A stretch of 64,000 bases of DNA from Streptomyces qinzhouensis (GTDB lineage Bacteria > Actinomycetota > Actinomycetes > Streptomycetales > Streptomycetaceae). The notes beneath the pieces are model-generated. The model was not told the DNA's origin. It saw nothing but the letters and a program-made list of their open reading frames with translations, and made no database searches. Positions 5,527 to 19,657 of the stretch are shown in pieces. Positions within the stretch are counted from its first letter, which is position 1; each line of letters begins with the position of its first letter. The position numbers and the translations under genes are program-made. The stretch lies in the NCBI RefSeq assembly GCF_007856155.1, contig NZ_CP042266.1:3596001-3660000 (forward strand), given 5' to 3'.

Positions 5527-6111
5527 TCAGCCCGGCTTCCGCGAGGACCGCAGGGAGGCGAGCAGTCCGAGCTCCGGGGCCAGCACTCCGGGCTGCCCGA
5601 GAGACCGGAAGTCCGCCTCGACCGCCGCCAGGTCGAGGGCACCGGCGCGCACCGCCCGGTACCGGACGGCCGACCACAGGAAGACATCGAGGTTGTCGTA
5701 CTGCGTATCGGCTTCCAGGACCTCTTCCTCGTGGAACCACAACGCGACCCGGCCGCTGGTGAGCACGGTGTAATAGTTGCCGCCGCCGTCACAGCCGACG
5801 GACCACACATCATCGCCGGACAGTTCCGTCTCATAGTCGGAGTCCAGGATCCCCACACCATTGGCTTCGAAGTCGAAACCGTAGGACCAGTCGTAGATAT
5901 CCAGGAACTGAGGCATCGCCCCCGACCGGACCCTCCGGTCGAAACCGGCCAGCGCTGTCGCGGCACCGTGCGGGAGCCTCGCGAGGAACGGCTCGACCGG
6001 ACGGGTCGACACCGGGACCCGGACCGGCGGCTCCCCGGGGAACCAGCGCGCCAGATCGGCGTCCAGACCGCGGTCCGTATATCCGGCCAACTGATCAACT
6101 GTGAGCGGCAT
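5527..6111 (-). CDS. conserved protein of unknown function
   Basis: 194 residues starting MPLTVDQLAGYTDRGL at ATG 6111. The longer frame upstream of this ATG looks non-coding, so I use the ATG. The sequence is acidic, with many aromatic residues (FLDIYDWSYGFDFEANG, then SGDDVWSVGCDGGGNYYTV, then ALWFHEEEV). The layout resembles SMI1/KNR4 (SUKH) proteins, where a beta-sheet with a GD.W...GGN-like motif reports on a block of residues, but I cannot confirm membership. SUKH proteins often act as immunity proteins against toxins. No toxin gene is next to it. Confidence 0.6.
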   Translation of the reverse strand: MPLTVDQLAGYTDRGLDADLARWFPGEPPVRVPVSTRPVEPFLARLPHGAATALAGFDRRVRSGAMPQFLDIYDWSYGFDFEANGVGILDSDYETELSGDDVWSVGCDGGGNYYTVLTSGRVALWFHEEEVLEADTQYDNLDVFLWSAVRYRAVRAGALDLAAVEADFRSLGQPGVLAPELGLLASLRSSRKPG

Positions 6112-6321
6112 GGGGCCGAGGCTAACCGAGAGCGCCCGCGCGGGACCGCCGTTCCGGACTTCCCGCCGGGAAGCAGCCCCGTGCCCATCCGCCCGCATCC
6201 CTTGGGCGCGCCGCCGGGCTCAGGACCTGGATGTCGTGGCTGATCGTCCACCTGTCGCAGAAGTCCGGTGGACAGGGCACTCGATGCCGTCCGGTCCGGC
6301 TCTGGTCGCCCCGTGCCGGCA

Positions 6322-6342
6322 CGTCCGCTCACGCATCGCTCA
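6322..6342 (+). repeat. left copy of an exact 21-bp direct repeat
   Basis: The 21 bp starting CGTCCGCTCACGCATC are identical to 19335-19355. This copy lies 17 bp beyond the stop codon of the serine hydrolase gene. The two copies bracket about 13 kb containing recombinase and IS remnants, and could be attachment-site halves. Confidence 0.6.
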
Positions 6343-6359
6343 CGCATCCAGCGCATCGG

Positions 6360-7403
6360 TCATGCGAAGGCCACCACCCGGAAGCCGTTGCGCAGCTCGG
6401 CCAATGGTTCGCGGTCGCGCGTCAGGCGGAGCTTGTTGGTGAGGAGCACCGCCCAGCGGTCCCTCTCCGGGGAGATCCACATCGCCGTACCCGTGAATCC
6501 GTAGTGAACCCAGACATCCTCGGCGGACTCGGTGCCCGGCGCCGGATGCCAGAAGAAGCCGCGCCGTGGGGTGAGCAGTCCGGTCTGGAGACGCAGCGAC
6601 TCCTTGATCCAGCGGTGGCCGAACCCGACTCGGCCGGTGGCGGGGGCGGGATTCAGCAGGTGCCGGAGGAATCGGACCAGGTCGTCGAGAACGGTGAAGA
6701 CGCCGGCGATACCGCACACGCCTCCCAGGAGTCGGGCGGAGAAGTCGTGGGCGACGCCCTTGAGGTGGATGTTCGTCTCGTTGTCGAGCTCCGTCGGCGC
6801 GCACCGAGCGGCGATCGCGGTGGGCAAGGGGCCGAAGCGGGTGGATTCCATCTCCAGTGGACGCCAGATCCGCTCCGTCGAGAGCCGGTCAAGAGGCCGC
6901 TGGGAGAGGTGTTCGGCGAGAAAGCCGAGGACGAGGGCGGCCCGGTCCGTGTACTCGACCGCTTCCCCTGGTGGGCGGTGGAGGGCCTCGTGGAGGACGC
7001 CGTCGCGGATGTCCTGCGGGTCGGTGCCGTAGAGGCTCCGCAACTGGGCGCGGAGCGGGACGCCCGCTGTGTGGGTGAGCAGCTGGCGGGCGGTCACGGC
7101 CCCGATCGGATGGCTGTCGACCTCGTTCCAGTACGTGCCGAGCGGCGCGTCGAGGTCGAGCTTGCCCTCCTCCCAGAAGGTGCCGACGCAGGACCATACG
7201 GCGAGGACCTTGGTCAGGCTGGCGGCGTCGAAGACGGTGTCGCGGAGCATCGGTGCGGCGGGCTCGTCGGGGTCAAGGACCCCGACGGCACCGTGGGTAT
7301 GCGGCCCCGTGGCGTCGCCGACCGCCCACACGGCACCCGGGTAGACCCCGTCGTGGACGCCTTGGCTCATGAGCTGCTCGATGCGTGCCGTGCGGTGCTT
7401 CAT
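6360..7403 (-). CDS. serine hydrolase, beta-lactamase (class C/EstB) family
   Basis: 347 residues, ATG 7403 with AGGGAG a few nt upstream. Motifs: catalytic S-x-x-K as SLTK (in FDAASLTKVLAVW, residues about 58-70); Tyr of the second motif in VEYTDRAALVLG, where YxN is altered to YTD; and HYGFTGTAMWISP near the C-terminus as the third motif. The family includes esterases, D-amino-acid peptidases and DD-carboxypeptidase-like enzymes. No signal peptide, so cytosolic. It is the last gene of the minus-strand cluster, separated by 110 bp from the glycosyltransferase, and may have its own promoter. Confidence 0.8.
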   Translation of the reverse strand: MKHRTARIEQLMSQGVHDGVYPGAVWAVGDATGPHTHGAVGVLDPDEPAAPMLRDTVFDAASLTKVLAVWSCVGTFWEEGKLDLDAPLGTYWNEVDSHPIGAVTARQLLTHTAGVPLRAQLRSLYGTDPQDIRDGVLHEALHRPPGEAVEYTDRAALVLGFLAEHLSQRPLDRLSTERIWRPLEMESTRFGPLPTAIAARCAPTELDNETNIHLKGVAHDFSARLLGGVCGIAGVFTVLDDLVRFLRHLLNPAPATGRVGFGHRWIKESLRLQTGLLTPRRGFFWHPAPGTESAEDVWVHYGFTGTAMWISPERDRWAVLLTNKLRLTRDREPLAELRNGFRVVAFA

Positions 7404-7513
7404 GGTCTCCCTGTTCCTGGTGGGCACCCCGGGCAGGCCAGCGTAGTGACGTGGGCGGGGTTGGCGGAGCAATGGCACGGCGGGCGTCGAAGGCGGCGCC
7501 GGTACGTGCGGCT

Positions 7514-8635
7514 TCAGCGGATCTGACGGCCGAGGGTGGTCAGCGCCTGGGCGGTCGCCGTCAGAGGGTGACGGGCGGCATTGGCACGGCCCGCCTGTCG
7601 CAGGGCGCTCAGCAGACCGGGGGAGGTACGCAACCGTTCGAAGTCTCGGGCGAGTGCTGCGGAGTTGGTGAAGTCCATGGCGATGCCGGAGGCAGCGAGG
7701 ACCTCGTTGAGGCCGGGTACGGGCTGGTAGGCGACGGGCAGGCCGCAGGCTTGGGCCTCCAGCGACACCAGGCCCATCGCCTCCAGGGTGGTCGAAGGGA
7801 GGGCCAGCACGTCGTGCTCGGCGAAGGCCTTCCACAGTTGTGGACGGCGGAGCCAACCGAGGTACCGGACCCGAACTCCGGTGCGCTTGAGCAGCGGGGC
7901 CAAGGCGTGGAACTGGGCCCTGGGGGCGGCAACGCTCAGTTCGACGCCGGGAACGCGCGCGAGGCTCGTGACCAGACGCCGGGCGCCCTTCTCGGCGGTC
8001 AGTCGTCCCGCGTACAACAGGCGCAGGTGGCTGCTGGAGGTGCGGTCGGGGCGGTGGGGCGGGTCGGTGAGGAGATGGTCGGGGATGCCCCAGGGAATGT
8101 GGACGATCTTGCGGCGGTCGGTCCCCGGAGCGAGTTCGAGGAGGCGATCGGCCATGGCCGCAGTGGGGACCACGACGGCATCGGCGGCCCGCACCGTTTC
8201 GAGAAGCACGCGGAACTGGTCACGGTGGGTTGCTGCGAAGATCAGGTCGGTGCCGTGTACCAGGGCGATCCTGGGATGCGCGGGGAGCGCTCGGAGCAGG
8301 GCGGGCGTCGCCCCGAAAGTGAGATGTTGCAGGTGCAGTACGCCGATCCGAGCCGGGTCGATCGCGTCGGTGAGCGCCCGGCGCAGTGCCACAACATAGC
8401 GGCCGAAGCCAGGTCCCTCCAGACATTTCCCGGGCACGCTCAGCAGGTCGAGTCCGGTGGGGAGGCGGATGGGAGAACTGGGCGGTGCCAACATGAAGGC
8501 CCTTGCGGGGATCAGGGGCTCGTCCCCGGTGTAGAGGTCGAGGAAGAGTTCGACGCTGCCGCCGGGACTTCCGGCGGGTAGGTCCAGGAACGTGGCGACC
8601 AGTGGTCCCGTGCCCGGGCGCACGAGGGGACTCAT
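7514..8635 (-). CDS. GT4-family glycosyltransferase
   Basis: 373 residues with the GT-B architecture. The N-terminal domain (1-185) has weak similarity to sugar-acceptor domains. The C-terminal donor domain shows LLYAGRLTAEKGARRLV and the E-x7-E motif in TTLEAMGLVSLEAQACGLPV. Transfers a sugar from a nucleotide-activated donor; donor and acceptor unknown. The ATG overlaps the stop of the upstream deaminase-like gene (ATGA, 8632-8635), so translation is coupled. Its place beside a MurA homologue and nucleotide enzymes suggests it decorates a nucleotide-derived or cell-wall-like product. Confidence 0.8.
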   Translation of the reverse strand: MSPLVRPGTGPLVATFLDLPAGSPGGSVELFLDLYTGDEPLIPARAFMLAPPSSPIRLPTGLDLLSVPGKCLEGPGFGRYVVALRRALTDAIDPARIGVLHLQHLTFGATPALLRALPAHPRIALVHGTDLIFAATHRDQFRVLLETVRAADAVVVPTAAMADRLLELAPGTDRRKIVHIPWGIPDHLLTDPPHRPDRTSSSHLRLLYAGRLTAEKGARRLVTSLARVPGVELSVAAPRAQFHALAPLLKRTGVRVRYLGWLRRPQLWKAFAEHDVLALPSTTLEAMGLVSLEAQACGLPVAYQPVPGLNEVLAASGIAMDFTNSAALARDFERLRTSPGLLSALRQAGRANAARHPLTATAQALTTLGRQIR

Positions 8636-9168
8636 GGCGCTCCCCGGGGGAACTCTTCGTACAGGCGAGAGATGTCGATGCCGCTTGTAGCCGCATACTT
8701 GGCGTGCTGGCGCTGGTAGCTGGCCGGGGTACCGAGGCTGGTCAGAAAGACGAGCTTGCCGAAGGTCATGCCCGGATAGACCTTGACGGGTTTGGCGGCT
8801 CGCATCTCCAGCGTCCAGTGGATGGCGTGGCCTTGGTGACCGAGCGGGGCTGACACATGGACCCAGATGCCGAGGGCTCCGATTGAGTGGTCTCCGTTGA
8901 GGAGCTGCGCGTACCTTTCCGAGCCTGTCTTCTCCAGGGTGACGCCCAGGTAGAGCACTCCGGGCTCCAGGATCAGGCCGACTGCGGGGATGGTCCGTTC
9001 GGTGAACGTGGTGGGCACGGCGGCGTCCAGCTCTCCGTCGCAGATGCGGATCGTGCCGCCCAGCCTCCAGTCGTACGCGTTGGGGGAGAGGCGTGTCGGG
9101 TCGTAGGGGGCAATAGTGATCTCGCCCACGCGGACGGCCGCGGCTATCGCGGGACCGGTAAGGATCAT
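8632..9168 (-). CDS. dCTP deaminase-like protein 2 (keeps the catalytic Glu, lacks Ser/Arg)
   Basis: 178 residues, Dcd/dUTPase fold. It begins MILTGPAIAAAV. The Dcd loop that is usually G-R-S-S-x-x-R-L-G reads GDHSIGALG here, so the residues matching E. coli Ser111 and Arg115 become His and Ala. The catalytic glutamate is present in HWTLEMRAAKPVKVYPGM, which has a loop two residues shorter than usual. KYQG near the C-terminus is KYAA. The ATG overlaps the stop of its paralogue (9165-9168). Family enzymes are trimers converting dCTP to dUTP. Alone this copy should be weak or inactive as a deaminase. Confidence 0.75.
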   Translation of the reverse strand: MILTGPAIAAAVRVGEITIAPYDPTRLSPNAYDWRLGGTIRICDGELDAAVPTTFTERTIPAVGLILEPGVLYLGVTLEKTGSERYAQLLNGDHSIGALGIWVHVSAPLGHQGHAIHWTLEMRAAKPVKVYPGMTFGKLVFLTSLGTPASYQRQHAKYAATSGIDISRLYEEFPRGAP

Positions 9169-9704
9169 GAGGGCACCGCCTCCACGCCGGCCGTGTCGCG
9201 CCAGTACTGGGAGGGCTGAGGACCGGCGGCGCCCTGGTACTTGCCGTGGTACGGGGCGACGGCGCCGGTGGCGGCGAAGAACATGACCTGTCCGATCTTC
9301 ATGCCCGCGTACACCCGCAGGGGGCGGACGGGCGAGAGCATGAGCGTCCACTGGCCGTGGAAGCCGATGTCTCCGATCGGTGCCGTGATCTCGACGAACA
9401 AGCCGAGTCGTCCGACCGAGGAGCGACCGAAGAGGAGGGGGACGAAGAGGTCCGAGCCGACCTCCTCGACGGTGTGGCCCAGGTACAGCTCGCCCGGCTG
9501 AAGGACGTATCCGGCCTTGTCGATCGGGACGGAGCGCGTGGGGTTGGCGCGGTGGGAGTCGATCACCTCGGAGGTGTAGGTCAGCAGGGTCGGGCCGAGG
9601 CGGATGTTGTAGCTGTTGGGGTTCGTCTGATCCGGTGCGAAGGGAACGATACGTACACGGCCGTCGGCCACGGCCGAGTTGATCTCGGGGCCGGTGAGGA
9701 TCAC
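9165..9704 (-). CDS. dCTP deaminase-like protein 1 (keeps Ser/Arg, lacks the catalytic Glu)
   Basis: 179 residues from GTG 9704, which overlaps the preceding stop (GTGA). It starts MILTGPEINSAVADGRV and keeps the canonical loop GRSSVGRLGLFVEITA and the nucleotide-binding KYQGAAGPQPS. At the position of the catalytic Glu (TLELSN in mycobacterial Dcd-Dut) it reads TLMLSP, so Glu is replaced by Met. Together with the next gene, which has the Glu but not the Ser/Arg, the pair could make a mixed trimer. A non-catalytic nucleotide-binding role is the alternative. Alignments were made by eye. Confidence 0.75.
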   Translation of the reverse strand: MILTGPEINSAVADGRVRIVPFAPDQTNPNSYNIRLGPTLLTYTSEVIDSHRANPTRSVPIDKAGYVLQPGELYLGHTVEEVGSDLFVPLLFGRSSVGRLGLFVEITAPIGDIGFHGQWTLMLSPVRPLRVYAGMKIGQVMFFAATGAVAPYHGKYQGAAGPQPSQYWRDTAGVEAVPS

Positions 9705-10918
9705 CGTCGACCTCCTTCGGGGCGGCTGGTGCGCTCGGGGGTGGTCAGGAGGCGGCGGACCGTGTGCCCGAGCCGTAGACCGGTCGCGCTGGTGCGTCCG
9801 CCGAGGTGGCTCTGAGCGAGGTAGTCGGTCGTCAGGACGCTCCGCGGGTTCGGCGGCAGCGGATTCGGCAGGACGGCCAGCGGGCCGACGCGCTCGGCGA
9901 GCGCGTCAAGTGCCTGGGCGTGCTCGTCGGGGAGGACGGCGTGCACGAGCGTGTTGTCGAAGGGTTCGACGGCCAGGAGGTCGCCGAGGGTGAGGGTGCT
10001 GCCGAGTGGTATCGAGCGCAGGGCGGTCTCGTTGAGAACGACCGCGTCTGCTGCGGATCCGGCGCGCAGATAGGCGGTGATCTCTTCGAGGAGCCGACGG
10101 CGGTCCAGTGGGATATCGCGGTACGGCTCCCTCACCGTGCCGAGCGGGCGGGCCAGCTTCTGCTCGATGGTGGAGATCCTCTCCCGTAAGCCAATGAGGG
10201 CATCCGGGAGGACCGAGGCACTGGGAAAGAGGCGGGTGCGGGCTGTCCAGCCGCTCTCGGTCGGCGTGGCCGTGGCGTACCCGAGGCCGAGTTCTCGTCC
10301 CTTGACCACGAGGGTGTCACCGACGCGCACGGGACCGTTGACGTCGCTGTGACAGTGACCGGAGAAGACGATGCCGGCGAATGGGCAGGAGCGGGCGAGC
10401 TTTAGGTCCTCCTCGAAGCCGGAGTGGGACATGACCACCCAGGAGTCGGCACGGTGGTGGTGTTCGATCATCACCTCCCGGAGTGCACGGACGGGGTCGG
10501 TGACGCGGTGACCGGCGCGCCGGCCGGCGGGGATCGCGTGGAACGCCTGCTGGCCAATGACGGCAGTGACGGCGACTCGCCTGCCGCCGACCCGCTCGAT
10601 GCGCACCCGTTCGAAGATCGGAACTCCTTCCTCGTCGGTCGTGTTCGCGCATACGGTGATCAGCCGAAGCTCCGGCTCGAAGTAGTGCGGCCAGCCGTGG
10701 TTTCCGGGGGCGACCACGTCGTAGAGGGTGGTGAGGACGGAGCGTTCGATGGCCCCCCTGCCGAGGCGGTAGATGCCGGTGCCCTCGAAGAAGTCGCCGC
10801 TGTCCACGATGAGGCTGTTGGCCCTGGCGTTGTGCAGGAAGGCGAGCATCGGGGCGGCGGAGCCGATGGCGGAGTGGACGTCGGTCGTGGCGACGATCTG
10901 CCGGAGCTGCCGGTTCAC
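9701..10918 (-). CDS. cytosolic metallophosphatase of the UshA/5'-nucleotidase family
   Basis: 405 residues from GTG 10918, which overlaps the stop of the MurA-like gene (GTGA). The N-terminal calcineurin-like domain shows all metal motifs: TDVHS (D-x-H), SGDFFEG, PGNHGW, MSHSG and GHCHSD. The C-terminal part matches the 5'-nucleotidase C domain: ADAVVLNETALRS, then GDLLAVEPFDNTLVHAVLP. UshA enzymes are usually exported, but no signal peptide is present here. It probably dephosphorylates a nucleotide or sugar nucleotide made or consumed by its operon partners. Confidence 0.8.
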   Translation of the reverse strand: MNRQLRQIVATTDVHSAIGSAAPMLAFLHNARANSLIVDSGDFFEGTGIYRLGRGAIERSVLTTLYDVVAPGNHGWPHYFEPELRLITVCANTTDEEGVPIFERVRIERVGGRRVAVTAVIGQQAFHAIPAGRRAGHRVTDPVRALREVMIEHHHRADSWVVMSHSGFEEDLKLARSCPFAGIVFSGHCHSDVNGPVRVGDTLVVKGRELGLGYATATPTESGWTARTRLFPSASVLPDALIGLRERISTIEQKLARPLGTVREPYRDIPLDRRRLLEEITAYLRAGSAADAVVLNETALRSIPLGSTLTLGDLLAVEPFDNTLVHAVLPDEHAQALDALAERVGPLAVLPNPLPPNPRSVLTTDYLAQSHLGGRTSATGLRLGHTVRRLLTTPERTSRPEGGRR

Positions 10919-12234
10919 GGGATCACCTCGCAGATATCGGCACCGAGGGCGTGCAGTTTGACGGGCAGGTCGGCGTGGCCGCGGCGGAGCTGTTCGAGTC
11001 CGCCGAGAGTCGTCACCCCGTGGGCGGTGAGTCCGGCGATGGCCAGGGCCGAGCCGGTGCGGATGTCGGTGGCTTCCACACCGGCGCCGCTCAGTCGCTG
11101 CGGGCCCGTGATGCGGCACTCGGTGGGGCACAGCTCGTGGATCTTTGCGCCAAGTCGGGTGAGCTGGGGCAGCAGGTTGCCGTGGCGGCCGGGATTGATG
11201 GCGTCGGCGAACAGGTGGGTGCCCGGAAGCGAGAGCGCCAGAGCCATCAGCGGGGGCTCGAAGTCGGCGTCCAGAGCACCGGGGTCCAAGGAAGCGACGG
11301 CCTGTAGCGATCTGCCCGTGGGCCGGGCGCCCCGAGCGCGGACGGTCAGGGTGCCGTCATCGGCTTCGGTGGGGAACCCGAGCAGACGCAGAGCATCCAC
11401 CAGGGGGGCCAGGTCTCCACTGCGTACGCCGAGAATTTGTGCTTCTCCACCGGTGACGGCGACTGCGCACGCCAGGGTGCCCGCTTCGATCTTGTCGCCC
11501 GGCACCCGCCACGAGACCGATTCCTCCGAGGGGATCACCGGTGGGCGGAGGGAGAGGGTGTTTTCGCCGAATCGGCTCTCCCATCCAGCCGTCCTCAACG
11601 CTTCCACGACACTGAGCACCTCGGGCGAGAGATTCGGCTGCCCCAGACGCAGAGGACGTCCCTCGACGACAGCGCGCAGGAGGGCGGCGACCGTCGCACC
11701 GCGGGACCGGAAAGGCAGCATGACCGACACCGTTCCGCTGTCGCGCGCGGTCGCCTCCACGAAGTAGCCGCGGTCGTCCATGGTGGTGCGGTCGCCGAAC
11801 CGTTCGTAGACCTTGAAGTGCTGCTCCATTCCCCGTGCTCCGATGTCGCAGCCGCCCGGCCAGGGCAGACGGGCCCGGCCGCAGGCACCCAGCAGCGCGG
11901 GGACGAGGTAGTACGAGGCACGGATGCGGGCGGCGACCTCGGGAGCAAGGTCCGGCTGGGACTGGTCGCTCGGCAAGATCAACGTCGTCTGCGGATCGTT
12001 GACCGAGCGAGCCGCGTGCCAGCCACCCTGCTGGAGCAGGGTGAGCATCGTCTCGACGTCCGTGTTCGTCGGCACGTTGCCGAGGCGTACCGGTCGGCGC
12101 AGAGCGGCGGCAGCAGCGAGCAGGGGAAGGGCGGCGTTCTTGGAACCGTCGACGGTCACGGACCCGGTCAGGGGACTACCGGGTCGGATGGCGACCACTT
12201 CGGCGGCGACGGGCGGAATCCGCACGGGGACCAA
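10915..12234 (-). CDS. MurA-like enolpyruvyl (UDP-GlcNAc 1-carboxyvinyl) transferase
   Basis: 439 residues. The start is TTG 12234: AAGGAG lies 7 nt upstream, inside the end of the preceding gene. The EPSP/MurA two-domain fold is clear. Catalytic features are kept: Lys-Asn in DGSKNAALP (residues about 29-37), the active-site Cys loop in PGGCDIGARG, RIRASYYLV for substrate phosphate, ATDIRTGSALAIAGL and RGHADLPVKLHALGAD. The usual PGFPTDMQ segment is diverged (DPGALDADFEPP), so the acceptor may not be UDP-GlcNAc. The housekeeping murA should be elsewhere. Similar paralogues act on nucleotides in nikkomycin/polyoxin pathways. Confidence 0.85.
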   Translation of the reverse strand: MVPVRIPPVAAEVVAIRPGSPLTGSVTVDGSKNAALPLLAAAAALRRPVRLGNVPTNTDVETMLTLLQQGGWHAARSVNDPQTTLILPSDQSQPDLAPEVAARIRASYYLVPALLGACGRARLPWPGGCDIGARGMEQHFKVYERFGDRTTMDDRGYFVEATARDSGTVSVMLPFRSRGATVAALLRAVVEGRPLRLGQPNLSPEVLSVVEALRTAGWESRFGENTLSLRPPVIPSEESVSWRVPGDKIEAGTLACAVAVTGGEAQILGVRSGDLAPLVDALRLLGFPTEADDGTLTVRARGARPTGRSLQAVASLDPGALDADFEPPLMALALSLPGTHLFADAINPGRHGNLLPQLTRLGAKIHELCPTECRITGPQRLSGAGVEATDIRTGSALAIAGLTAHGVTTLGGLEQLRRGHADLPVKLHALGADICEVIP

Positions 12235-12246
12235 CGGTCAACTCCT

Positions 12247-12672
12247 TCACATGGGGTGGGTTTCGGCGGACGAAAGTGCGGCGCTGAACTCGAACTCGGC
12301 CCAGCACCGTTTCCCGGACGGCAACGGATCGAACCCATGGCGGTCTGCGAGCGCGGCGACCAGGAACAGGCCGCGTCCGGCTTCCGCCGCAGTGCCGGGC
12401 AGGCCGGCCTCCGGGATCTCGCTGTTCGTGTCGATGACCTCGATGCGCAGACCGCCGGTACCCAGATGGGCGCCGGCCGAGATCGGCCCATCGGCGCCCG
12501 CGTGACGTACCGCGTTCGTGATCAGCTCCGAGGCCACCAGCTCTGCCGCATCCAGGAGCTCCGGAGGGAGAAGGGTGCCCCAAGCCCGTATGGCGGCTAC
12601 CAGGTCGCGCCTCGCGGATGAGGCGGCAGCGTGTGTGCCGGGTACGGGAAACCGGATCTGGTGCACCTTCAC
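12247..12672 (-). CDS. RsbW-like ATP-binding (HATPase) regulatory protein
   Basis: 141 residues from GTG 12672 with AGGAGG 4 nt upstream. GHKL ATPase motifs: N-box ELVASELITNAVRHAG, and a G-box region ending in EAGRGLFLVAALADRHG. These short Streptomyces proteins resemble anti-sigma factor kinases (RsbW/SpoIIAB) and often pair with XRE regulators. It is first in the minus-strand operon, 12 bp ahead of the MurA-like gene, and divergent from the XRE regulator. It likely takes part in control of the cluster rather than in its chemistry. Confidence 0.8.
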   Translation of the reverse strand: MKVHQIRFPVPGTHAAASSARRDLVAAIRAWGTLLPPELLDAAELVASELITNAVRHAGADGPISAGAHLGTGGLRIEVIDTNSEIPEAGLPGTAAEAGRGLFLVAALADRHGFDPLPSGKRCWAEFEFSAALSSAETHPM

Positions 12673-12746
12673 TGAGCCTCCTGGATCGGGGCGACGTACT
12701 CACGTAACCGCCCTGGAGAGGGCTGGTTCCAGGCCGCTTGCCGGGC

Positions 12747-12772
12747 CTGCATCGCTCATGCAGAAGCTGCAT
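12747..12772. promoter_or_regulatory. candidate operator with three alternating half-sites
   Basis: CTGCAT (12747), ATGCAG (12758) and CTGCAT (12767) form two overlapping palindromes with spacers of 5 and 3 nt. The array lies midway in the 165-bp divergent gap between the ATPase operon and the XRE gene, where a shared operator would be expected. The regulator binding it is assumed, not shown. Confidence 0.45.
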
Positions 12773-12837
12773 CGCAGGCGAAATCGGCTCGGCTACGCTC
12801 GGTCGGGCAGGCAGGATCGGCGACGGCGGAGGGAGCC

Positions 12838-14121
12838 GTGGCGCGGATGGCCGAAGTGCAGAGCGAAGCGCAGCGGATCGGCGAAGTGATCCGCCAGGCA
12901 AGGGTGTTACGACGACGCTCCCAGAAGGACGTTGCCACAGAACTCGGGTACCACCAGTCGAAGGTGAGCCGACTGGAGAGCGGACGAGGCACTCAGGACA
13001 TCACCGTGCTGCGTGAGGTCGCACGGGTGCTGGACATCCCACCCGACCGCCTGGGCCTTGCCCCTTCTCCCCCAACCAACCCTTCCACCCCAGAGACAGA
13101 AGACATGCGCCGCCGTCGACTCCTCACCGCGGGCGCAGCCGTGCTCGCAGTCCCCGCCACACCTCTCGTCCCCGGACACCCGGAACTGATCCAGTCATTG
13201 CTCCCCGGCCCGAGTCCCGCGTTCACCGAGCCGGTGGGCGATCTGCCGCAATTGCGGATGCAGACCGCGAACGCCCGCCGACTCTTCTGCACCTGTGACT
13301 ACACGGCACTCGAGCGCACTCTGCCCGGACTGATCGGGCAGCTTCGGCGGGCCGCTGCCGACAATCCCGGATCGTCCGACCTGTCCGGCCTCCTCGCCAC
13401 GGCCTACCAGACCTCGGCCGGCCTGCTGCTGAAGCAGAGCGACCTCGGCAATGCCTGGCTCGCCGTCGGACGGGCCATGGCCGAGGCCGAGCGATCCAGT
13501 GACCCGGTAGTGCTCGCCTCCAGCGTCCGGGTCCACGCACACGTTCTCGCCCGGGACGGTCACTCCGCCCAGGCCATCACCCTGGTCCGCCACACCGCCG
13601 ATCAACTCACCGGCTCCTACGACCGACGCTCCCCGGAGTACCTCGCGGCACTGGGACTGCTCCTTCTGCGCGGCGTGACAGCCGCGAGCACCGGCGGCGA
13701 TCGCTCCGCCACGGAGGACTTCCTCGCGGAGGCACGGGACGTGGCCCACTACGTCTCGCTCGACCGTCCCGACGCCTGGGCCAACTTCAGCCCCACCAAC
13801 GTGACCCTGCACAGCATCAGTGCGATGGTCGTCTTCGGGGACGCGGGCATCGCCCTCGACGCCGCCCGACCACTCATGCGCCGCCACATCCCCGTGCCCG
13901 AACGCCGGGCGGCCCTGTGGGTCGAAACCGCCCGCGCCTACAACCAACAGGGCCGCCTCGCCGACGGCTACCAGGCACTGCGCATCGCCGAGAGCTGCGC
14001 GGCACAGGACATCCGCCGCCCTGCCGTACGGGAACTGGTGGCCGACATGGCGGCCCGCGACCGCCGCCGTACCCTGCCGGAACTGCACCACTTCAGCCGT
14101 CGACTCGGAGTCCCCGCGTGA
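12838..14121 (+). CDS. XRE-family regulator with a TPR-like C-terminal domain
   Basis: 427 residues from GTG 12838, with GGAGGGA close upstream; an ATG 9 nt later is the alternative. Helix-turn-helix at residues about 14-68 (IGEVIRQARVLRRRSQKDVA, GYHQSKVSRLESGRG). Then a Tat-signal-like stretch MRRRRLLTAGAAVLAVP (about 86-102) and a long helical TPR-like region to the end, suited to binding a peptide or small ligand. It is divergent from the MurA/Dcd operon and translationally coupled to the flavoprotein gene (GTGA overlap). Likely the local regulator of the cluster. Confidence 0.85.
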   Translation: MARMAEVQSEAQRIGEVIRQARVLRRRSQKDVATELGYHQSKVSRLESGRGTQDITVLREVARVLDIPPDRLGLAPSPPTNPSTPETEDMRRRRLLTAGAAVLAVPATPLVPGHPELIQSLLPGPSPAFTEPVGDLPQLRMQTANARRLFCTCDYTALERTLPGLIGQLRRAAADNPGSSDLSGLLATAYQTSAGLLLKQSDLGNAWLAVGRAMAEAERSSDPVVLASSVRVHAHVLARDGHSAQAITLVRHTADQLTGSYDRRSPEYLAALGLLLLRGVTAASTGGDRSATEDFLAEARDVAHYVSLDRPDAWANFSPTNVTLHSISAMVVFGDAGIALDAARPLMRRHIPVPERRAALWVETARAYNQQGRLADGYQALRIAESCAAQDIRRPAVRELVADMAARDRRRTLPELHHFSRRLGVPA

Positions 14122-14675
14122 GCGATCAGCCCGCCCAGCAGATCAAGAAGCCGTTCCTCTACGTCGTGGTCTGCGCGGCCGGGATCGCCGGTGACGTCGG
14201 CAGGCTGATCACCGCTGCTCAGGACGCGAACTGGGAGGTCGGAGTCGTCGCCACCCCGCAGGGTCTCGGCTTCCTCGACGCGCCCGCCGTCGAGGAGCAG
14301 ACCGGCTACCCCATCCGCTCCGCCTGGCGCCTCCCGGGCGACCCGCGCCCGCTGCCGCCCGCCGACGCCATCGCGGTCGCGCCGGCCACCTTCAACACGA
14401 TCAACAAGTGGGCCGCCGGGATCTCCGACACCCTGGCGCTCGGCATCCTGTGCGAGGCGCACGGCTTCGGCATCCCCACCGCCGTCCTGCCCTACCTGAA
14501 CTCCGCCCAGGCCGCCCACCCCGCCTACGCCCGGAGCTTGGAGCAGTTGCGCGAGATGGGCGTCCTGATCGGCTCGTACGAGCCCCACCAGCCGAAGGCC
14601 GGCGGCGGCGCGGACCGCTTCCGCTGGGAGGCGGCGTTGGAACTGCTCACCCCCAAGGTGCCCCTGGCGGGATGA
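14118..14675 (+). CDS. flavoprotein (HFCD/CoaC-like family)
   Basis: 185 residues from GTG 14118, overlapping the regulator stop by 4 nt. It starts after a short lead with KPFLYVVVCAAGIAGDVGRL, a Rossmann-like flavin fold. PATFNTINKWAAGISDTLAL matches the family P-A-T-x-N-T motif that holds FMN in phosphopantothenoylcysteine decarboxylases and lantibiotic decarboxylases. The catalytic His of EpiD/CoaC enzymes is not obvious. It is regularly found after XRE-TPR regulators in Streptomyces. The role may be redox sensing or decarboxylation; not resolved. Confidence 0.8.
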   Translation: MSDQPAQQIKKPFLYVVVCAAGIAGDVGRLITAAQDANWEVGVVATPQGLGFLDAPAVEEQTGYPIRSAWRLPGDPRPLPPADAIAVAPATFNTINKWAAGISDTLALGILCEAHGFGIPTAVLPYLNSAQAAHPAYARSLEQLREMGVLIGSYEPHQPKAGGGADRFRWEAALELLTPKVPLAG

Positions 14676-14717
14676 TCAGCGCCGTCGTGTTGGTGTTGTC
14701 TGCGGCGGTGGGGCGAT

Positions 14718-15061
14718 CACTGCCGACGCCAGCAGGAGAAGCAGGCGGCGTGGGGCCCGGCCTGAAACGAGACCGGCAAGGTCATCACCCGGGAGGACAG
14801 CTCATGGCTCCACCCCGAGACGGTCTCGGAAACCTTCCGCCGCGTCCTCGCCGCCACGGATCTACCGCCAATCACCTTGCGCGATCTGCGTCACGTCGCC
14901 CCGACGCTCACTCACGGCGGAGGCAGTGACCTCCACACGATCAAGAAGACGCTGCGGCACTCCACGATCACGCTGACGTCGGACACGTACACGAGCCTGC
15001 TGCCGAGGTGGATCAGGCTGCCGCGAGGCTCATCCCCCGCGCAGCCCGCAAGTCCGTTTAG
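14718..15061 (+). pseudogene. tyrosine recombinase (integrase) C-terminal remnant
   Basis: Translation in one frame gives the familiar integrase C-terminal half: HCRRQQEKQAAWGPA, then NETGKVITREDSSWLHPE, then LPPITLRDLRHVAPTLTHGG, then TLRHSTITLTSDTYTSLLP. A TGA at 14763-14765 replaces the expected Trp after WGPA. A one-base loss near 15008 shifts the frame, after which GAG GTG GAT CAG GCT restores the usual EVDQAAARLIP ending and TAG at 15059. The N-terminal half, including the first catalytic Arg, is missing. It is dead but diagnostic of a past integration event. Confidence 0.85.
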
Positions 15062-15108
15062 ACCGCAAATCGGGTGACCATACGAAGGGGGTGCCAGAAG
15101 GTGTCTCC

Positions 15109-16323
15109 ATGAGCACCCATGATGAGCCCACCGTTTCCCTGGTCACGGTGGACCGAGAGACTGCTTCCATCATTCTGTCGCGCTCAGATGGCAAGGAGGC
15201 ACACTTTCCCCTGTCGCCTTCCTTCTTCGCTGCCAGCAGCACGCTATCGAGGCTACATGTCCCGCTGTCTCTCAATGTACTGATTGCCAGCACGCTATCG
15301 GGGGATGACATCCTCTTCGAGCTACCGCAGTACGATGCGCCAACTGGCCAACTGGGCGGACGTCTCGTCGTGTACCTCGACCAAAACAAGTGGAGCGAGA
15401 TCGGAAATGCCCTTCACGCACCATCAAAGGTGAGTGATTCATCCCGAAGGGCCGCTGAAAAGCTGGCACAGTGGGTAAAAGAGGGGCGCATCATCTTGCC
15501 AGCATCCGCTGGCCACCACAACGAAACCACGAAGCGGTTCGATACCCGGAAGCGATACAGCCTCGGCCTAACGGTTCTGCAGTACAGCCGTGGCTGGCAG
15601 ATGCGACACCCTCTCCAGGTACGCCGCAACGAACTCCACGACAGCTTCTGCCACCGTTCCGGCCAACTCGCGAAGGTCCGCTCAGCCCCGGTGTTCACAC
15701 TGGCCCCGGATGCCTTGTACTCAACCGCCCAGCGCGGCATGCGGCACTATTCAGCGCCAGCAGACTTCGAGCCACCCCTAGCATTCACGACCGAGGCGCT
15801 GGTAACAGCGACTAGCTCGATTGACGTCATGCTAGACACAGAGCGAATCGAACCAGGCCCAAAGACGAGCTGGGCGGAGGTGAATCAGCGCTTCAGCGAC
15901 TGGCTGGACGAGCAAGATATCGACTCTCAGCAGAAGCGAAAGCACATTGACGCATTCTTTCTGACGGATATCCAGAAGGAAGTAGCCGAGGAGGCCCACT
16001 CTGCAGCTCTCGCCATCGACGATCTAAGCCGCTGGTTCCTGAGGGAGGCAATCGGCGATATCCGCAGGTTTCCAGCTCTGGGACTATTTCGCGAAATGCT
16101 GCACAACCGGCACCTCAACAAGGGGACCAGGTGGCGCCTAAACGATCTTACAGACATGATGTATCTATCCTGCGCAGCTGGCTACGCCGACTTCGTCGTA
16201 TGCGAACGACACATGCGTGACCCCCTGGCTCACGGCCTCAGGCGCTTGGGGCTGAAGACTCCGGTCTACCGCCACCTTGCCGAGGCCGTCGATGCCATCG
16301 AAGAGACACTGACGGAGCCCTAG
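15109..16323 (+). CDS. PIN-like domain protein, probable nuclease of foreign origin
   Basis: 404 residues from ATG 15109 (AAGG 7 nt upstream). Base composition and codon use are much less GC-biased than neighbours (frequent A/T third positions), a sign of recent transfer. RLVVYLDQNKWSEIGNAL (residues about 87-104) and NDLTDMMYLSCAAGYADFVV (about 350-369), followed by CERHM, give the acidic D...(N)D..D.......YAD pattern of PIN-type Mg-dependent nucleases at the two ends of the domain, with a long helical insert between. PIN-like nucleases of this size occur in defence islands. It lies just after the integrase remnant, with no antitoxin-like partner. Exact family not recognised. Confidence 0.7.
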   Translation: MSTHDEPTVSLVTVDRETASIILSRSDGKEAHFPLSPSFFAASSTLSRLHVPLSLNVLIASTLSGDDILFELPQYDAPTGQLGGRLVVYLDQNKWSEIGNALHAPSKVSDSSRRAAEKLAQWVKEGRIILPASAGHHNETTKRFDTRKRYSLGLTVLQYSRGWQMRHPLQVRRNELHDSFCHRSGQLAKVRSAPVFTLAPDALYSTAQRGMRHYSAPADFEPPLAFTTEALVTATSSIDVMLDTERIEPGPKTSWAEVNQRFSDWLDEQDIDSQQKRKHIDAFFLTDIQKEVAEEAHSAALAIDDLSRWFLREAIGDIRRFPALGLFREMLHNRHLNKGTRWRLNDLTDMMYLSCAAGYADFVVCERHMRDPLAHGLRRLGLKTPVYRHLAEAVDAIEETLTEP

Positions 16324-16745: not shown

Positions 16746-17183
16746 CTACGCCACGTGCAAACGCCTCTGCTCTGCCCCGGGCTGCGCCGGCCTTGCTGCG
16801 TTCAGCTTGCGCAGTGCGCCGACGAACGACCCCACGTAGGGCGCGTCTGCATGCGAGTAAGGATGCCGGAACGCATTGAGCACGCGCTCCATGAGGGTGG
16901 ACAACTCGGGGTCGGTGCCGATCGCGGAAAGGTCGACGGTGACCAGCTCCGGCCGGTAAACAGCAAACGACCACCACTCGTCGGGACAACTGGGGCGCTT
17001 GGGGTAGCAGTTCAGACCTCGCCGATGCAGCAACTGGTAGACCCGCTGCAGCCTCTCCATCCGGAGTCGATCCCGCCCTTCAAGCGACTTGACCCTGGCG
17101 TTCTTGATCAACGCAGCGCCGCCCTCTTCGTCCACGGTGCGCATGATCGCTTCGATCGTGCTTGGGCATACGTGAATCGCCAC
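16746..17183 (-). CDS. uncharacterised protein, possibly truncated by a nonsense codon
   Basis: 145 residues from GTG 17183, with AGAGAGG 4 nt upstream. Sequence features: a central EGRDRLRMERLQRVYQLLHR basic helix, a C-x6-C pair in NCYPKRPSCPDEWWSFAVY and an acidic DLSAIGTDPELSTLMERV segment. I recognise no family. The frame stays open and protein-like after its TAG (see 16428-16745), so this may be the first part of a broken gene. It sits between the PIN-like gene and an IS element. Confidence 0.5.
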   Translation of the reverse strand: MAIHVCPSTIEAIMRTVDEEGGAALIKNARVKSLEGRDRLRMERLQRVYQLLHRRGLNCYPKRPSCPDEWWSFAVYRPELVTVDLSAIGTDPELSTLMERVLNAFRHPYSHADAPYVGSFVGALRKLNAARPAQPGAEQRRLHVA

Positions 17184-17343: not shown

Positions 17344-17349
17344 CCTAGG
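17344..17349. repeat. left target-site duplication of the IS481-type element (CCTAGG)
   Basis: CCTAGG directly adjoins the left inverted repeat and is repeated at 18405-18410 beyond the right one. It fits the NCTAGN target I remember for IS481. Confidence 0.75.
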
Positions 17350-18346
17350 TGTATTGACCTGCAGGGTTGTTAACGCGGCTGATGGGTGGGTGTCCGCCGA
17401 GTGCGGTGTGGCTGCGGTGGTGGTTGTAGGTGTGGAGGAAGTCTGCCAGGGCCCGGGTCCGCTCGTCGTTCGAGTGGTAGGGCCGCTGGTAGGCCCATTC
17501 GTCCAGGAGGGTGCGGTTGAAACGTTCGACCTTGCCGTTGGTCTGCGGCCGGTAGGGGCGGATCTTCTTGTGCGTGATGCCGGCGGTGGCCAGGGTCCGG
17601 GTGAACAGTTTGGCCTTGTAGCAGGAGCCGTTGTCGGTGAGGACCCGCTGGACGGTGATGCCGTGGGCGGCGAAGAAGGCGTTCGCCCGCTGCCAGAAGC
17701 CCGCGGCCGTGTGCCGGCGCTCGTCGGGCAGGACTTCGCTGTAGGCCGGGCGGGAGTGGTCGTCGACCGCGGAGTGGACGAAGGAGTAGCCGATCACCGG
17801 TTTGCAGCTCCTGCGCTCGTCGGTGGTTGCGAGCTTGTTGTCCATCGCCTGCCTGCGGTCCATAACTTTGTGGCCGCCCCCGTGGGGGATGTTGCCGAGC
17901 TTCTTGATGTCGACGTGGACCAGGTCGCCCGGCCGGGCGTGTTCGTAGCGGCGGATCACCCGGCCGGTGGGCCGGTCCAGGAAGGCGAGGCGGTTCAGGC
18001 CGTGGCGGACCAGGATCCGGTGCACGGTCGAGGCGGGCAGGCCCAGGACCGGGCCGATGCGGGCCGGGCCGAGCTTGCGCACAGTCCGGATGCGGCATAC
18101 CTCCGCCTCGACCACGGCCGGGGTACGGTGCGGAGTCGTGTGCGGGCGGCTGGAGCGGTCGGCAAGGCCGCTGTCGCCCTCGGCCCGCCAGCGCCGCACC
18201 CACTTGTGGGTGGTCGGCCGGGAGATGCCCATCTCGGCCGCCACACGCTCGACCAGGATCCGCCTGCCGTGAACGGTCAGCCGGGCATTACGGTGGGACG
18301 CGAAGACCTCCGTGTGCGGTGTGGAGCCTAGACACCTCCACCACAC
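17345..18346 (-). CDS. IS481-family transposase
   Basis: About 333 residues from GTG 18346; a start further in, near SHRNARLTVHGRR, is equally possible since most relatives begin MSHRNAR. Two helix-turn-helix segments (VAAEMGISRPTTHKWVRRW; LGPARIGPVLGLPASTVHRI), then a DDE domain: Asp in HSAVDDHSRPAYSEVL, Asp in RVLTDNGSCYK, Glu in QTNGKVERFNRTLLDEWAY. LVERVAAEMG appears about nine residues shorter than in relatives, which could impair DNA binding. The stop codon TAG lies in the CCTAGG target duplication, outside the element proper. Confidence 0.85.
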   Translation of the reverse strand: MWWRCLGSTPHTEVFASHRNARLTVHGRRILVERVAAEMGISRPTTHKWVRRWRAEGDSGLADRSSRPHTTPHRTPAVVEAEVCRIRTVRKLGPARIGPVLGLPASTVHRILVRHGLNRLAFLDRPTGRVIRRYEHARPGDLVHVDIKKLGNIPHGGGHKVMDRRQAMDNKLATTDERRSCKPVIGYSFVHSAVDDHSRPAYSEVLPDERRHTAAGFWQRANAFFAAHGITVQRVLTDNGSCYKAKLFTRTLATAGITHKKIRPYRPQTNGKVERFNRTLLDEWAYQRPYHSNDERTRALADFLHTYNHHRSHTALGGHPPISRVNNPAGQYT

Positions 18347-18947: not shown

Positions 18948-19334
18948 GGCCCCGGGTGCTCCACTCCGGACCACATCTCACACAACGACGCTTCGTTCTG
19001 CCGCTTCCAGGCCACCAACGAGGCTGCTACATCAACCCACCCACCCCCATACGCGCAGCCCGTCGCGGTCGAGCGGCACGGGTGCCGTGCAGTCCTCCCC
19101 GATTGAGCAGGTCACCCTCTGGGCCTCGTGCGGGTCGGTGAGCAGGGGGTGAGCTCGCCGCCGCCGCACAACAGGGACGGCCGGTCGAGTATGGGCGTGG
19201 TGCGCTGGACAAGGCCGAGAGTCCGCAAGAGCCAGCCTTCGGCTAGCTAGCCGGCTGGTGAGGCATGCATGCGACGAACACCCGGCAGCGCCCGCTTACT
19301 GCTGGAGACGTCGGAGCACTGCCTGCTGTCAGGG
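18948..19334. other. region without a supported gene
   Basis: About 390 bp with no convincing frame. A short stretch at 19060-19090 resembles 17310-17340 (both hold CGAGCGGC followed by CCGTGCAGTCC), hinting at duplicated or decayed sequence on the two sides of the IS. Confidence 0.4.
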
Positions 19335-19355
19335 CGTCCGCTCACGCATCGCTCA
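19335..19355 (+). repeat. right copy of the exact 21-bp direct repeat
   Basis: Identical to 6322-6342 over 21 bp; it ends GCATCGCTCA. It lies 95 bp from the 3' end of tRNA-Lys. Confidence 0.6.
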
Positions 19356-19376
19356 GGCACGAGCCCCCTAACGCCG

Positions 19377-19411
19377 AAGTGCCCCACCGGCCTCAGCCGA
19401 GTGGGGCACTT
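19377..19411. terminator. hairpin terminator near tRNA-Lys
   Basis: AAGTGCCCCAC pairs perfectly with GTGGGGCACTT (11 bp, 13-nt loop), beyond the 3' end of the minus-strand tRNA. Confidence 0.65.
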
Positions 19412-19450
19412 CTTCGCAGGTCACGGGCTTGCGCCCGACCCCGCGCGCGG

Positions 19451-19523
19451 TAGGCCGCGTGGGACTCGAACCCACAACCAACGGATTAAAAGTCCGCTGC
19501 TCTGCCAATTGAGCTAGCGGCCC
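19451..19523 (-). tRNA. tRNA-Lys (anticodon UUU)
   Basis: 73 nt. Acceptor GGGCCGC pairs with GCGGCCU (one G-U), discriminator A, anticodon loop CUUUUAA, T arm with GGTTCGAGTCC. The 3' CCA is not encoded. It lies at the right edge of the accessory island. Confidence 0.95.
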
Positions 19524-19657
19524 TCGGCCGAACCACACCTGAGCATAGCCGGACCCGGCGCGAGAGCCGATCGGGTATCCCTTGGTAGCGGTGTGGCGTC
19601 GGACAAGGAGGGCCGTCGCCGGGGTGCGGGAGCGTCCCCCGGCGACGGTTCCGGGGG

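Follow-up and report, generated by a model that had tools for sequence, protein, structure and literature searches.

Two described systems are among the closest to the locus examined here. The first is the NikO/PolA enolpyruvyl-uridine monophosphate (UMP) branch of nikkomycin and polyoxin biosynthesis, in which a MurA-fold enzyme and a phosphatase belong to a nucleoside-type Streptomyces operon. The second is the family of deoxycytidine triphosphate (dCTP) deaminases (DCDs) and bifunctional DCD-DUT enzymes, whose characterised members are homotrimers (PMC4827122). Here we describe a nine-gene block in the window, by which we mean the whole 64,000-nucleotide stretch at positions 3596001-3660000 of the 8.15-Mb single-contig genome of Streptomyces qinzhouensis. 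The block encodes a MurA-like enolpyruvyl transferase (MurAL), a 5'-nucleotidase-like phosphoesterase (the nucleotidase), two adjacent DCD-family proteins (Dcd1 and Dcd2), a GT4-family glycosyltransferase (GT4), a serine hydrolase and a small HATPase and, divergently, an XRE regulator and a flavoprotein (Table 1).

NikO (4fqd) is a detectable homologue of MurAL. In contrast to the nikkomycin and polyoxin clusters, the block has neither a radical SAM gene (NikJ/PolH) nor peptide genes, and MurAL is nearer to MurA. To our knowledge, a Dcd pair and a GT4 are not part of either pathway. The nucleotidase differs from UshA/CD73 5'-nucleotidases in being shorter (405 residues versus about 500 in the aligned chains) and apparently cytosolic; no signal peptide was noticed by eye, no prediction tool having been run. 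The literature matches listed, which mostly leave out subscription papers, include none on this operon, on a cluster combining MurA and Dcd, or on a Dcd pair within biosynthetic clusters.

Reciprocal loss of catalytic residues in Dcd1 and Dcd2

Dcd1 and Dcd2 belong to the fold family of the DCD and DCD-DUT enzymes and match them in length, N-terminal start and the arrangement of motifs, but are encoded by two adjacent genes with reciprocal loss of a Glu, an Asp and, in Dcd2, the phosphate motif. We aligned 61 Dcd1 and 60 Dcd2 sequences, window included; not all are independent, as some records may be the same strains. Every Dcd1 carries GRSS[VI]GR (RSSVGR in the window), the Asp, and a TLM hairpin in which Met stands for Glu (61/61). 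Every Dcd2 keeps the Glu (TLE; WTLE in the window) and carries His where the IDPG site (motif III) has Asp, and none has the RSS phosphate motif, the window protein having GDHSIGA instead (60/60 for each). The catalytic Glu at the end of the hairpin is presumably E138 of E. coli dCTP deaminase, and we take it to have a role in deamination. Against the dCTP deaminase profile TIGR02274 (cut-off 92.8 bits), Dcd1 scores 100.5 bits and Dcd2 59.6. Neither protein alone has all dCTP deaminase features, because the Glu is lost in Dcd1 and the phosphate motif in Dcd2. This reciprocal loss of catalytic residues is new here.

The same division is seen in all 18 tabulated pairs, seven of the window type and 11 others (loci labelled L are stretches, cited in their own coordinates, and those labelled G are genus or class genomes). 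The E-type member, to which Dcd2 belongs, retains the Glu, while its Asp has been replaced (LGH, LGN or LGQ); the Q-type member, exemplified by Dcd1, keeps the Asp and has Gln or Met in place of the Glu. The phosphate motif is weakened (RSG, KSG or RSW) in the Q-type of nine of the 11 non-window pairs; the Q-types of Streptomyces sp. NBC_00239 and Embleya keep RSS. In pairs of the window and Embleya types, the motif is missing from the E-type. Three single Dcds, two from Paenibacillaceae plasmids and one the genome's own housekeeping gene, keep Asp, Glu and SS.

This pattern suggests an obligate Dcd1-Dcd2 hetero-oligomer, trimeric like the dUTPase/DCD enzymes and with composite active sites. 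If the DCD fold follows the dUTPase pattern, the phosphate motif of Dcd1 and the Glu hairpin of Dcd2 could share one site, and the opposite interface would be dead.

Dcd pairs in other gene clusters

Pairs of this kind are also present on plasmids of Streptomyces strains NBC_00239, F12 (pFRL6), NBC_01384, NBC_01237 and S. globisporus NBC_01078, in genome G854 and, within a plasmid collection, in Nonomuraea, Nocardiopsis, Embleya, Rhizobium etli and R. sullae. A class sample of 394 genomes yielded a pair in five, own included, all of them Streptomyces and none outside the genus. With the F12 Q-type as query (E ≤ 1e-28), 30 of 199 genus genomes matched, window-type ones included. Among nine stretches from this search, in which one misaligned open reading frame piece each of L163 and L165 was set aside, a pattern scan identified both members in L161, L164, L165, L168 and L169 and the Q-type alone in L162, L163, L166 and L167, although the L163 E-type was later seen to end in TLE; all nine fit the reciprocal rule. 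L166 looks like the same plasmid as L135.

Unannotated genes of these sister clusters were first named by eye, and those of L163 and L167 were then checked by Pfam. Clustering of neighbours gave many groups that looked like antisense artefacts, and the genes of three loci were read from the codon GC pattern instead. The pairs of F12, NBC_01384, S. globisporus and NBC_01237 are accompanied by a divergent helix-turn-helix (HTH) regulator, a P-loop protein, a cytidine-deaminase-like protein, a methyltransferase, a GalU-like nucleotidyltransferase, a radical SAM enzyme, a GT4 and a HAD protein. Some of these genes are swapped for an epimerase or Gfo/Idh in Nonomuraea and Nocardiopsis, and the Rhizobium pairs occur with a methyltransferase, a deaminase-like protein and NUDIX. 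In NBC_00239, G012 and G079 we found a nucleotidase homologue, TauD, the Dcd pair, PIG-L, WbqC, GT4 and a ProRS-like ligase. With its GT4, PIG-L deacetylase and aminoacyl-tRNA-synthetase-like ligase beside the Dcd pair, the NBC_00239 cluster is one that we take to resemble the mycothiol-type MshA/B/C pathway; the window block, unlike Msh-type pathways, has no deacetylase or ligase. G854 and G110 combine a P450, the Dcd pair, a LysRS-like protein, methyltransferases and a pyridoxal phosphate-dependent decarboxylase (the G854 P450 and decarboxylase named by eye). In Embleya-type clusters (L136 8995-11278; L161, L162, L169), the E- and Q-type genes lie about 1 to 9 kb apart and a P-loop protein precedes the E-type Dcd.

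Two genus genomes, G038 and G159, carry a window-like Dcd1 (72-74% identity), Dcd2 (66-68%) and GT4 (54-56%), with no match to MurAL or the nucleotidase within the 18 kb of each stretch (L163 and L167). In L163 the Dcd1-Dcd2-GT genes follow an AurF-type oxygenase, and the Pfam neighbours are an O-methyltransferase, a P450, an FAD enzyme, a nitroreductase, HAD, CutC and HIT; L167 has the same layout by translated comparison. A GT4 accompanies the pair in the window, L163/L167, NBC_00239, F12, Nonomuraea, Nocardiopsis and Embleya types, and was not seen in the G854/G110, Rhizobium and G014/G024 stretches examined. Thus what stays constant is the Dcd pair, often together with a GT4, and the MurA-like and nucleotidase genes seem exchangeable.

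The block is a conserved unit

A sequence-only reading of the window had described seven minus-strand genes with four exact 4-nt overlaps, a divergent XRE regulator and a flavoprotein, and had asked whether the five coupled genes co-occur elsewhere. The open reading frames and overlap bases confirm this architecture. The overlaps join MurAL to the nucleotidase (10915-10918, GTGA), the nucleotidase to Dcd1 (9701-9704, GTGA), Dcd1 to Dcd2 (9165-9168, ATGA) and Dcd2 to GT4 (8632-8635, ATGA); a fifth 4-nt overlap, on the plus strand, joins the XRE and flavoprotein genes. As annotated, the plasmid-borne copy in Streptomyces sp. NBC_00161 likewise shows a 4-nt overlap at each of the four minus-strand junctions.

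The five coupled genes do co-occur. With the nucleotidase as bait and a match defined as at least 45% identity, they are found in the same order in 37 of 42 loci from the genome_contigs scan and in 24 of 25 loci from the own genome and genus genomes, the window's own locus among them; the two sets may share strains. Three of the five misses in the first set end at a contig edge (L038, L065, L066), one is a nucleotidase alone (L064) and one a fragment (L067); the miss in the second is G128. The arrangement is not due to chance, because the gene order is kept in these loci. Homologues of the HATPase (at least 45% identity over more than half its length), XRE regulator and flavoprotein occur in 27, 31 and 32 of the 42 loci, respectively.

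Among 199 genus genomes, own included, 23 match the nucleotidase at E ≤ 1e-30 and 22 do so over near full length, the G128 match covering only 122 residues; two genomes carry two copies. Beyond the family such loci are rare: in a phylum sample of 396 genomes, two have a nucleotidase of this kind, own included, and no homologue was detected at E ≤ 1e-5 in 50,697 phage records. Dcd2 has 453 relatives at E ≤ 1e-5; the best 120 of the 453 are all at least 73% identical, and the sources named among them are Streptomyces, Kitasatospora, Streptacidiphilus and Actinacidiphila. One record in the genome_contigs scan bears the title Microtetraspora glauca.

Two block types can be distinguished. Type A includes the HATPase, XRE and flavoprotein genes, with a MurAL mostly 65-79% identical to that of the window (88% in L026). 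Type B has a MurAL about 59% identical and mostly no match to those three proteins, the exceptions being a flavoprotein match in L047 and a 26% XRE match in L043. Two different block copies each are present in the S. hokutonensis (L027/L051) and S. roseicoloratus (L041/L050) records. Block copies that may be broken, because the nucleotidase match has one reported in-frame stop or because Dcd, nucleotidase or GT matches are split, are those of L010, L013, L015, L019, L024, L039, L062 and L063.

Mobile setting

The block appears to be cargo of mobile DNA that passes between soil bacteria. Many loci carry DUF3631, DUF2637 and a MobA-type relaxase on the flavoprotein side, as identified by Pfam in L027 and L028, although the relaxase homologue of L028 is itself without a Pfam match. 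With these two relaxases as queries (E ≤ 1e-12), 25 of 38 window-type loci have a homologue in the flanking sequence available; the count includes partial matches, and contig ends truncate some of the flanks. Integrase matches from a query whose reading frame was doubtful were left out of account. The whole nine-gene block is carried by a 208-kb plasmid of Streptomyces sp. NBC_00161. In L031, an S. acidiscabies record, it lies between tRNA-Lys(TTT) and a perfect 76-bp repeat of the 3' portion of that gene and the sequence next to it, the two copies (6099-6174 and 16944-17019) being separated by about 10.85 kb, and in L035 it adjoins tRNA-Lys(TTT), with no second repeat seen there.

In the window, an integrase remnant and an IS481-type transposase occupy part of the 4.8 kb that separates the flavoprotein gene from tRNA-Lys(TTT), where the island was probably integrated. 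A search of the window for a further tRNA-Lys match gave none above 15 bp. Nor was an empty site found: of the other 99 relatives searched, a single one has a homologue of the left neighbour (5527-6198).

MurAL, the nucleotidase and the remaining enzymes

The family assignments of the block proteins, made with Pfam and NCBIfam profiles, agree with the sequence-only reading in identifying a MurA homologue and a nucleotidase. In the MurA fold, the catalytic residues are of the Lys/Asn, Cys, Asp and Arg types, and the corresponding motifs are kept in at least 95% of 63 MurAL sequences, which were aligned with the genome's two other MurA-type proteins. The acceptor loop differs, with GxRGM in MurAL versus GGRPID and GTRTIE in those two proteins. 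MurAL is very probably not an ordinary peptidoglycan duplicate, the counter-explanation named in that reading, because it is only 27-28% identical to these two proteins and its score against the MurA profile TIGR01072 (249.6 bits) falls below the cut-off of 392.7. An AlphaFold2 model of MurAL was poor (predicted local distance difference test score 58.6) and was not used.

The nucleotidase has a full-length two-domain 5'-nucleotidase fold with metal-binding motifs and scores below every curated NCBIfam cut-off listed. It is a 5'-nucleotidase-like phosphoesterase with putative activity on nucleoside 5'-phosphates. The window GT4 is 35% identical to the GT4 of the NBC_00239 cluster. The serine hydrolase matches PF00144 (E 5.6e-49 for the longer open reading frame) and keeps the motifs SxxK (ASLTK), EYTDRA and YGFTGT at 97% or more in 34 aligned sequences; its best NCBIfam match, NF002968, scores 62.9 bits against a cut-off of 385, and no equivalog cut-off (class C beta-lactamase or PBP4-type) is reached.

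Proposed role of the block and its alternatives

Production of a nucleotide-type metabolite is the best available reading of the block, though an unproven one. In its specific form, which we advance tentatively and at a little below even confidence, the block would be a mobile cassette with all the genes needed to make a small molecule from a nucleotide, with Dcd1 and Dcd2 acting as a composite-site hetero-oligomer. The RSS phosphate motif of Dcd1 would meet the base-binding hairpin and Glu of Dcd2, and the resulting site would deaminate or otherwise alter a pyrimidine nucleotide, probably one of the (deoxy)cytidine series or an analogue. MurAL would then move an enolpyruvyl group from phosphoenolpyruvate to a nucleotide hydroxyl by NikO-like chemistry, the nucleotidase would take off phosphate, GT4 would attach a sugar, and the serine hydrolase might perform a last acyl or amide change, with the XRE regulator, flavoprotein and HATPase controlling expression. 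This scheme builds on the observed gene order, overlaps, conservation, mobile setting, reciprocal residue loss, protein families and one fold; the order of its steps and each substrate are guesses. A nucleoside-type metabolite had been suggested from the sequence alone, and the idea gains from the conservation of the unit, the catalytic-type motifs of MurAL, the nucleotidase fold and the recurrence of its parts beside natural-product tailoring enzymes; the split Dcds, the mobile setting and the modules free of MurA and nucleotidase had not been anticipated.

A broader proposal, somewhat more doubtful, extends to the other clusters. The paired degenerate Dcds may be obligate hetero-oligomers whose module, often with GT4, would be a mobile building block acquired by several unrelated actinomycete and rhizobial natural-product clusters, starting or editing a nucleotide-derived unit by a reaction absent from the homotrimeric ancestors. 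If these proposals are true, about one in nine sampled genus genomes (22/199) carries an unstudied mobile pathway; adjacent Dcd genes, one with a hairpin ending in TLE and the other in TLQ, TFQ or TLM, would be a signature for uncharacterised nucleotide-based clusters; and duplicated homo-oligomer subunits would have divided catalytic residues between them.

Several observations weigh against the cassette. The MurAL score is higher for MurA (152 bits) than for NikO (92 bits), and the acceptor may therefore be a UDP-sugar. The family scan found no radical SAM protein among the nine block proteins, and the block lacks a transporter, a resistance gene and a scaffold enzyme, in which it differs from most antibiotic clusters. 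Some islands have defence genes next to the block, as would be expected if its role were in defence, and the Dcd pair may have lost catalysis altogether. Finally, the full-length Dcd tree has a single E-type clade (support 97/92), but without the motif columns the E-types do not form one clade and two changes are needed. Because the clade is lost when this stretch is dropped, a single origin of the split is unsure, and we do not claim one for the E-type.

The alternative that survives best, although we consider it unlikely, is a wall-precursor or sugar-nucleotide pathway, in which MurAL would enolpyruvylate a UDP-sugar other than UDP-N-acetylglucosamine, the nucleotidase and Dcds would release or recognise the uridine part, and GT4 and the serine hydrolase would act on wall or glycan. 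The nearness of MurAL to MurA, its retention of the MurA Cys and the DD-peptidase/beta-lactamase fold of the serine hydrolase all fit such a pathway. However, the MurAL acceptor loop is unlike that of the genome's two other MurA-type proteins, inspection by eye, with no prediction run, revealed neither a membrane nor a secreted component, and MurA is not essential to the theme, because the stretches examined include Dcd pairs that have a GT4 but no MurA-like gene.

Rather improbable is a role for the Dcd pair as non-catalytic nucleotide sensors or scaffolds, pseudoenzymes that would regulate the pathway while other enzymes do the chemistry. Each partner does lack one catalytic residue, and enzymes of the DCD family are under deoxythymidine triphosphate allosteric control (PMC4827122). 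The remaining residues are nevertheless strictly invariant (Glu in 60/60, RSS and Asp in 61/61), and the loss is reciprocal rather than random in 18/18 pairs.

We consider it more improbable still that the block is an anti-phage system acting on nucleotides, an idea that the sequence-only reading had also ranked as the weaker one. The mobile setting, the XRE-type regulator, and the type IIG restriction and caspase-like genes beside L035 and L033 would suit such a system, and GT4 domains are proposed effectors in conflict systems (PMC8195603). In the F12 and Nonomuraea cassettes the GT4s are larger and score above the cut-off of PF20706 (GT4-conflict), that of F12 with 56.6 bits, but the window GT4 falls below it (20 bits versus a gathering score of 26). 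PADLOC (PADLOC-DB 2.0) gave no match for the seven minus-strand proteins, the flavoprotein or the three F12-cassette proteins given, and nine HTH-region matches for the XRE regulator. No sensor or effector-like domain appeared in the family scans, and the neighbour genes scanned for defence functions were hand-picked, without a control set.

That the block is an ordinary metabolic duplicate, its spare MurA, Dcd and nucleotidase backing up the housekeeping enzymes after which automatic annotation names them, is very improbable in view of the 27-28% identity of MurAL to the genome's other MurA-type genes, the incomplete active site of each Dcd and the patchy mobile distribution.

Gene map and further observations

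Table 1. Features of the block and its right flank in window coordinates
Feature	Position	Strand	Basis
Serine hydrolase, beta-lactamase/DD-peptidase fold	6360..7403	-	PF00144, motifs; likely start ATG 7403
GT4-family glycosyltransferase	7514..8635	-	PF00534/PF13692
Dcd2, E-type member of pair	8632..9168	-	PF22769 E 2.1e-23
Dcd1, Q-type member of pair	9165..9704	-	PF22769 E 8.3e-40
UshA/CD73-type 5'-nucleotidase-like phosphoesterase	9701..10918	-	UshA/SoxB-like by NCBIfam; no Pfam match
MurA-like enolpyruvyl transferase (MurAL), TTG start	10915..12234	-	PF00275 E 3.2e-33
Small HATPase (RsbW/anti-sigma-like), first gene of unit	12247..12672	-	PF13581 (HATPase_c_2) E 2.8e-14
Divergent intergenic region, 165 bp, presumed control region	12673..12837	.	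Position only
XRE/NsdA-like regulator, TPR-like C-terminus, divergent	12838..14121	+	PF01381; NF053720 57 bits, below cut-off 75
Flavoprotein, PPC-decarboxylase/EpiD family	14118..14675	+	PF02441; PDB 6jls E 8.7e-9
Tyrosine-integrase C-terminus remnant, 103 open codons between two stops	14766..15074	+	By eye from LRDLRH..LRHSTITLTSDTYTSLLP, without family search
IS481-type transposase between block and tRNA-Lys	17345..18346	-	PF13683, PF13011
tRNA-Lys(TTT), probable island integration site	19449..19523	-	ARAGORN

The HATPase gene is separated from the MurAL start by 12 nt. That start, a TTG, has GAAGGAG upstream; the database protein of the same genome has 427 residues, 12 fewer. The serine hydrolase gene is not coupled by overlap, because its likely start, at which aligned relatives begin, lies 110 nt past the GT4 stop. 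A consensus scan of 5900-15100 for sigma-70-like promoters found none (0.4 expected), and a terminator scan of the same range found one terminator-like site versus 2.0 expected, which was not used as support.

Two window open reading frames between the block and tRNA-Lys (15091-16323 and 16746-17183) have no Pfam match. Elsewhere, defence-type genes lie near the block in L033 (19306-21192, caspase-like, weak matches) and L035 (18628-21225, a type IIG restriction-modification gene), and a block neighbour in L027 (15218-16399) has a weak PD-T7-5 match. A second kind of cluster with a nucleotidase homologue (41% identity; a fragment in G128) occurs in L112 (1-15158, NBC_01244 plasmid) and G128:C2 (L111), stretches in which no Dcd match was found; both include a nonribosomal peptide synthetase-like protein, HAD and a P-loop protein that is TmrB-like by eye, and L112 also has an aminoglycoside phosphotransferase. 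Finally, at some distance from its block, L063 carries a second flavoprotein-XRE pair (19034-19540; 85% and 78%), which suggests that these regulators may also accompany other cargo.

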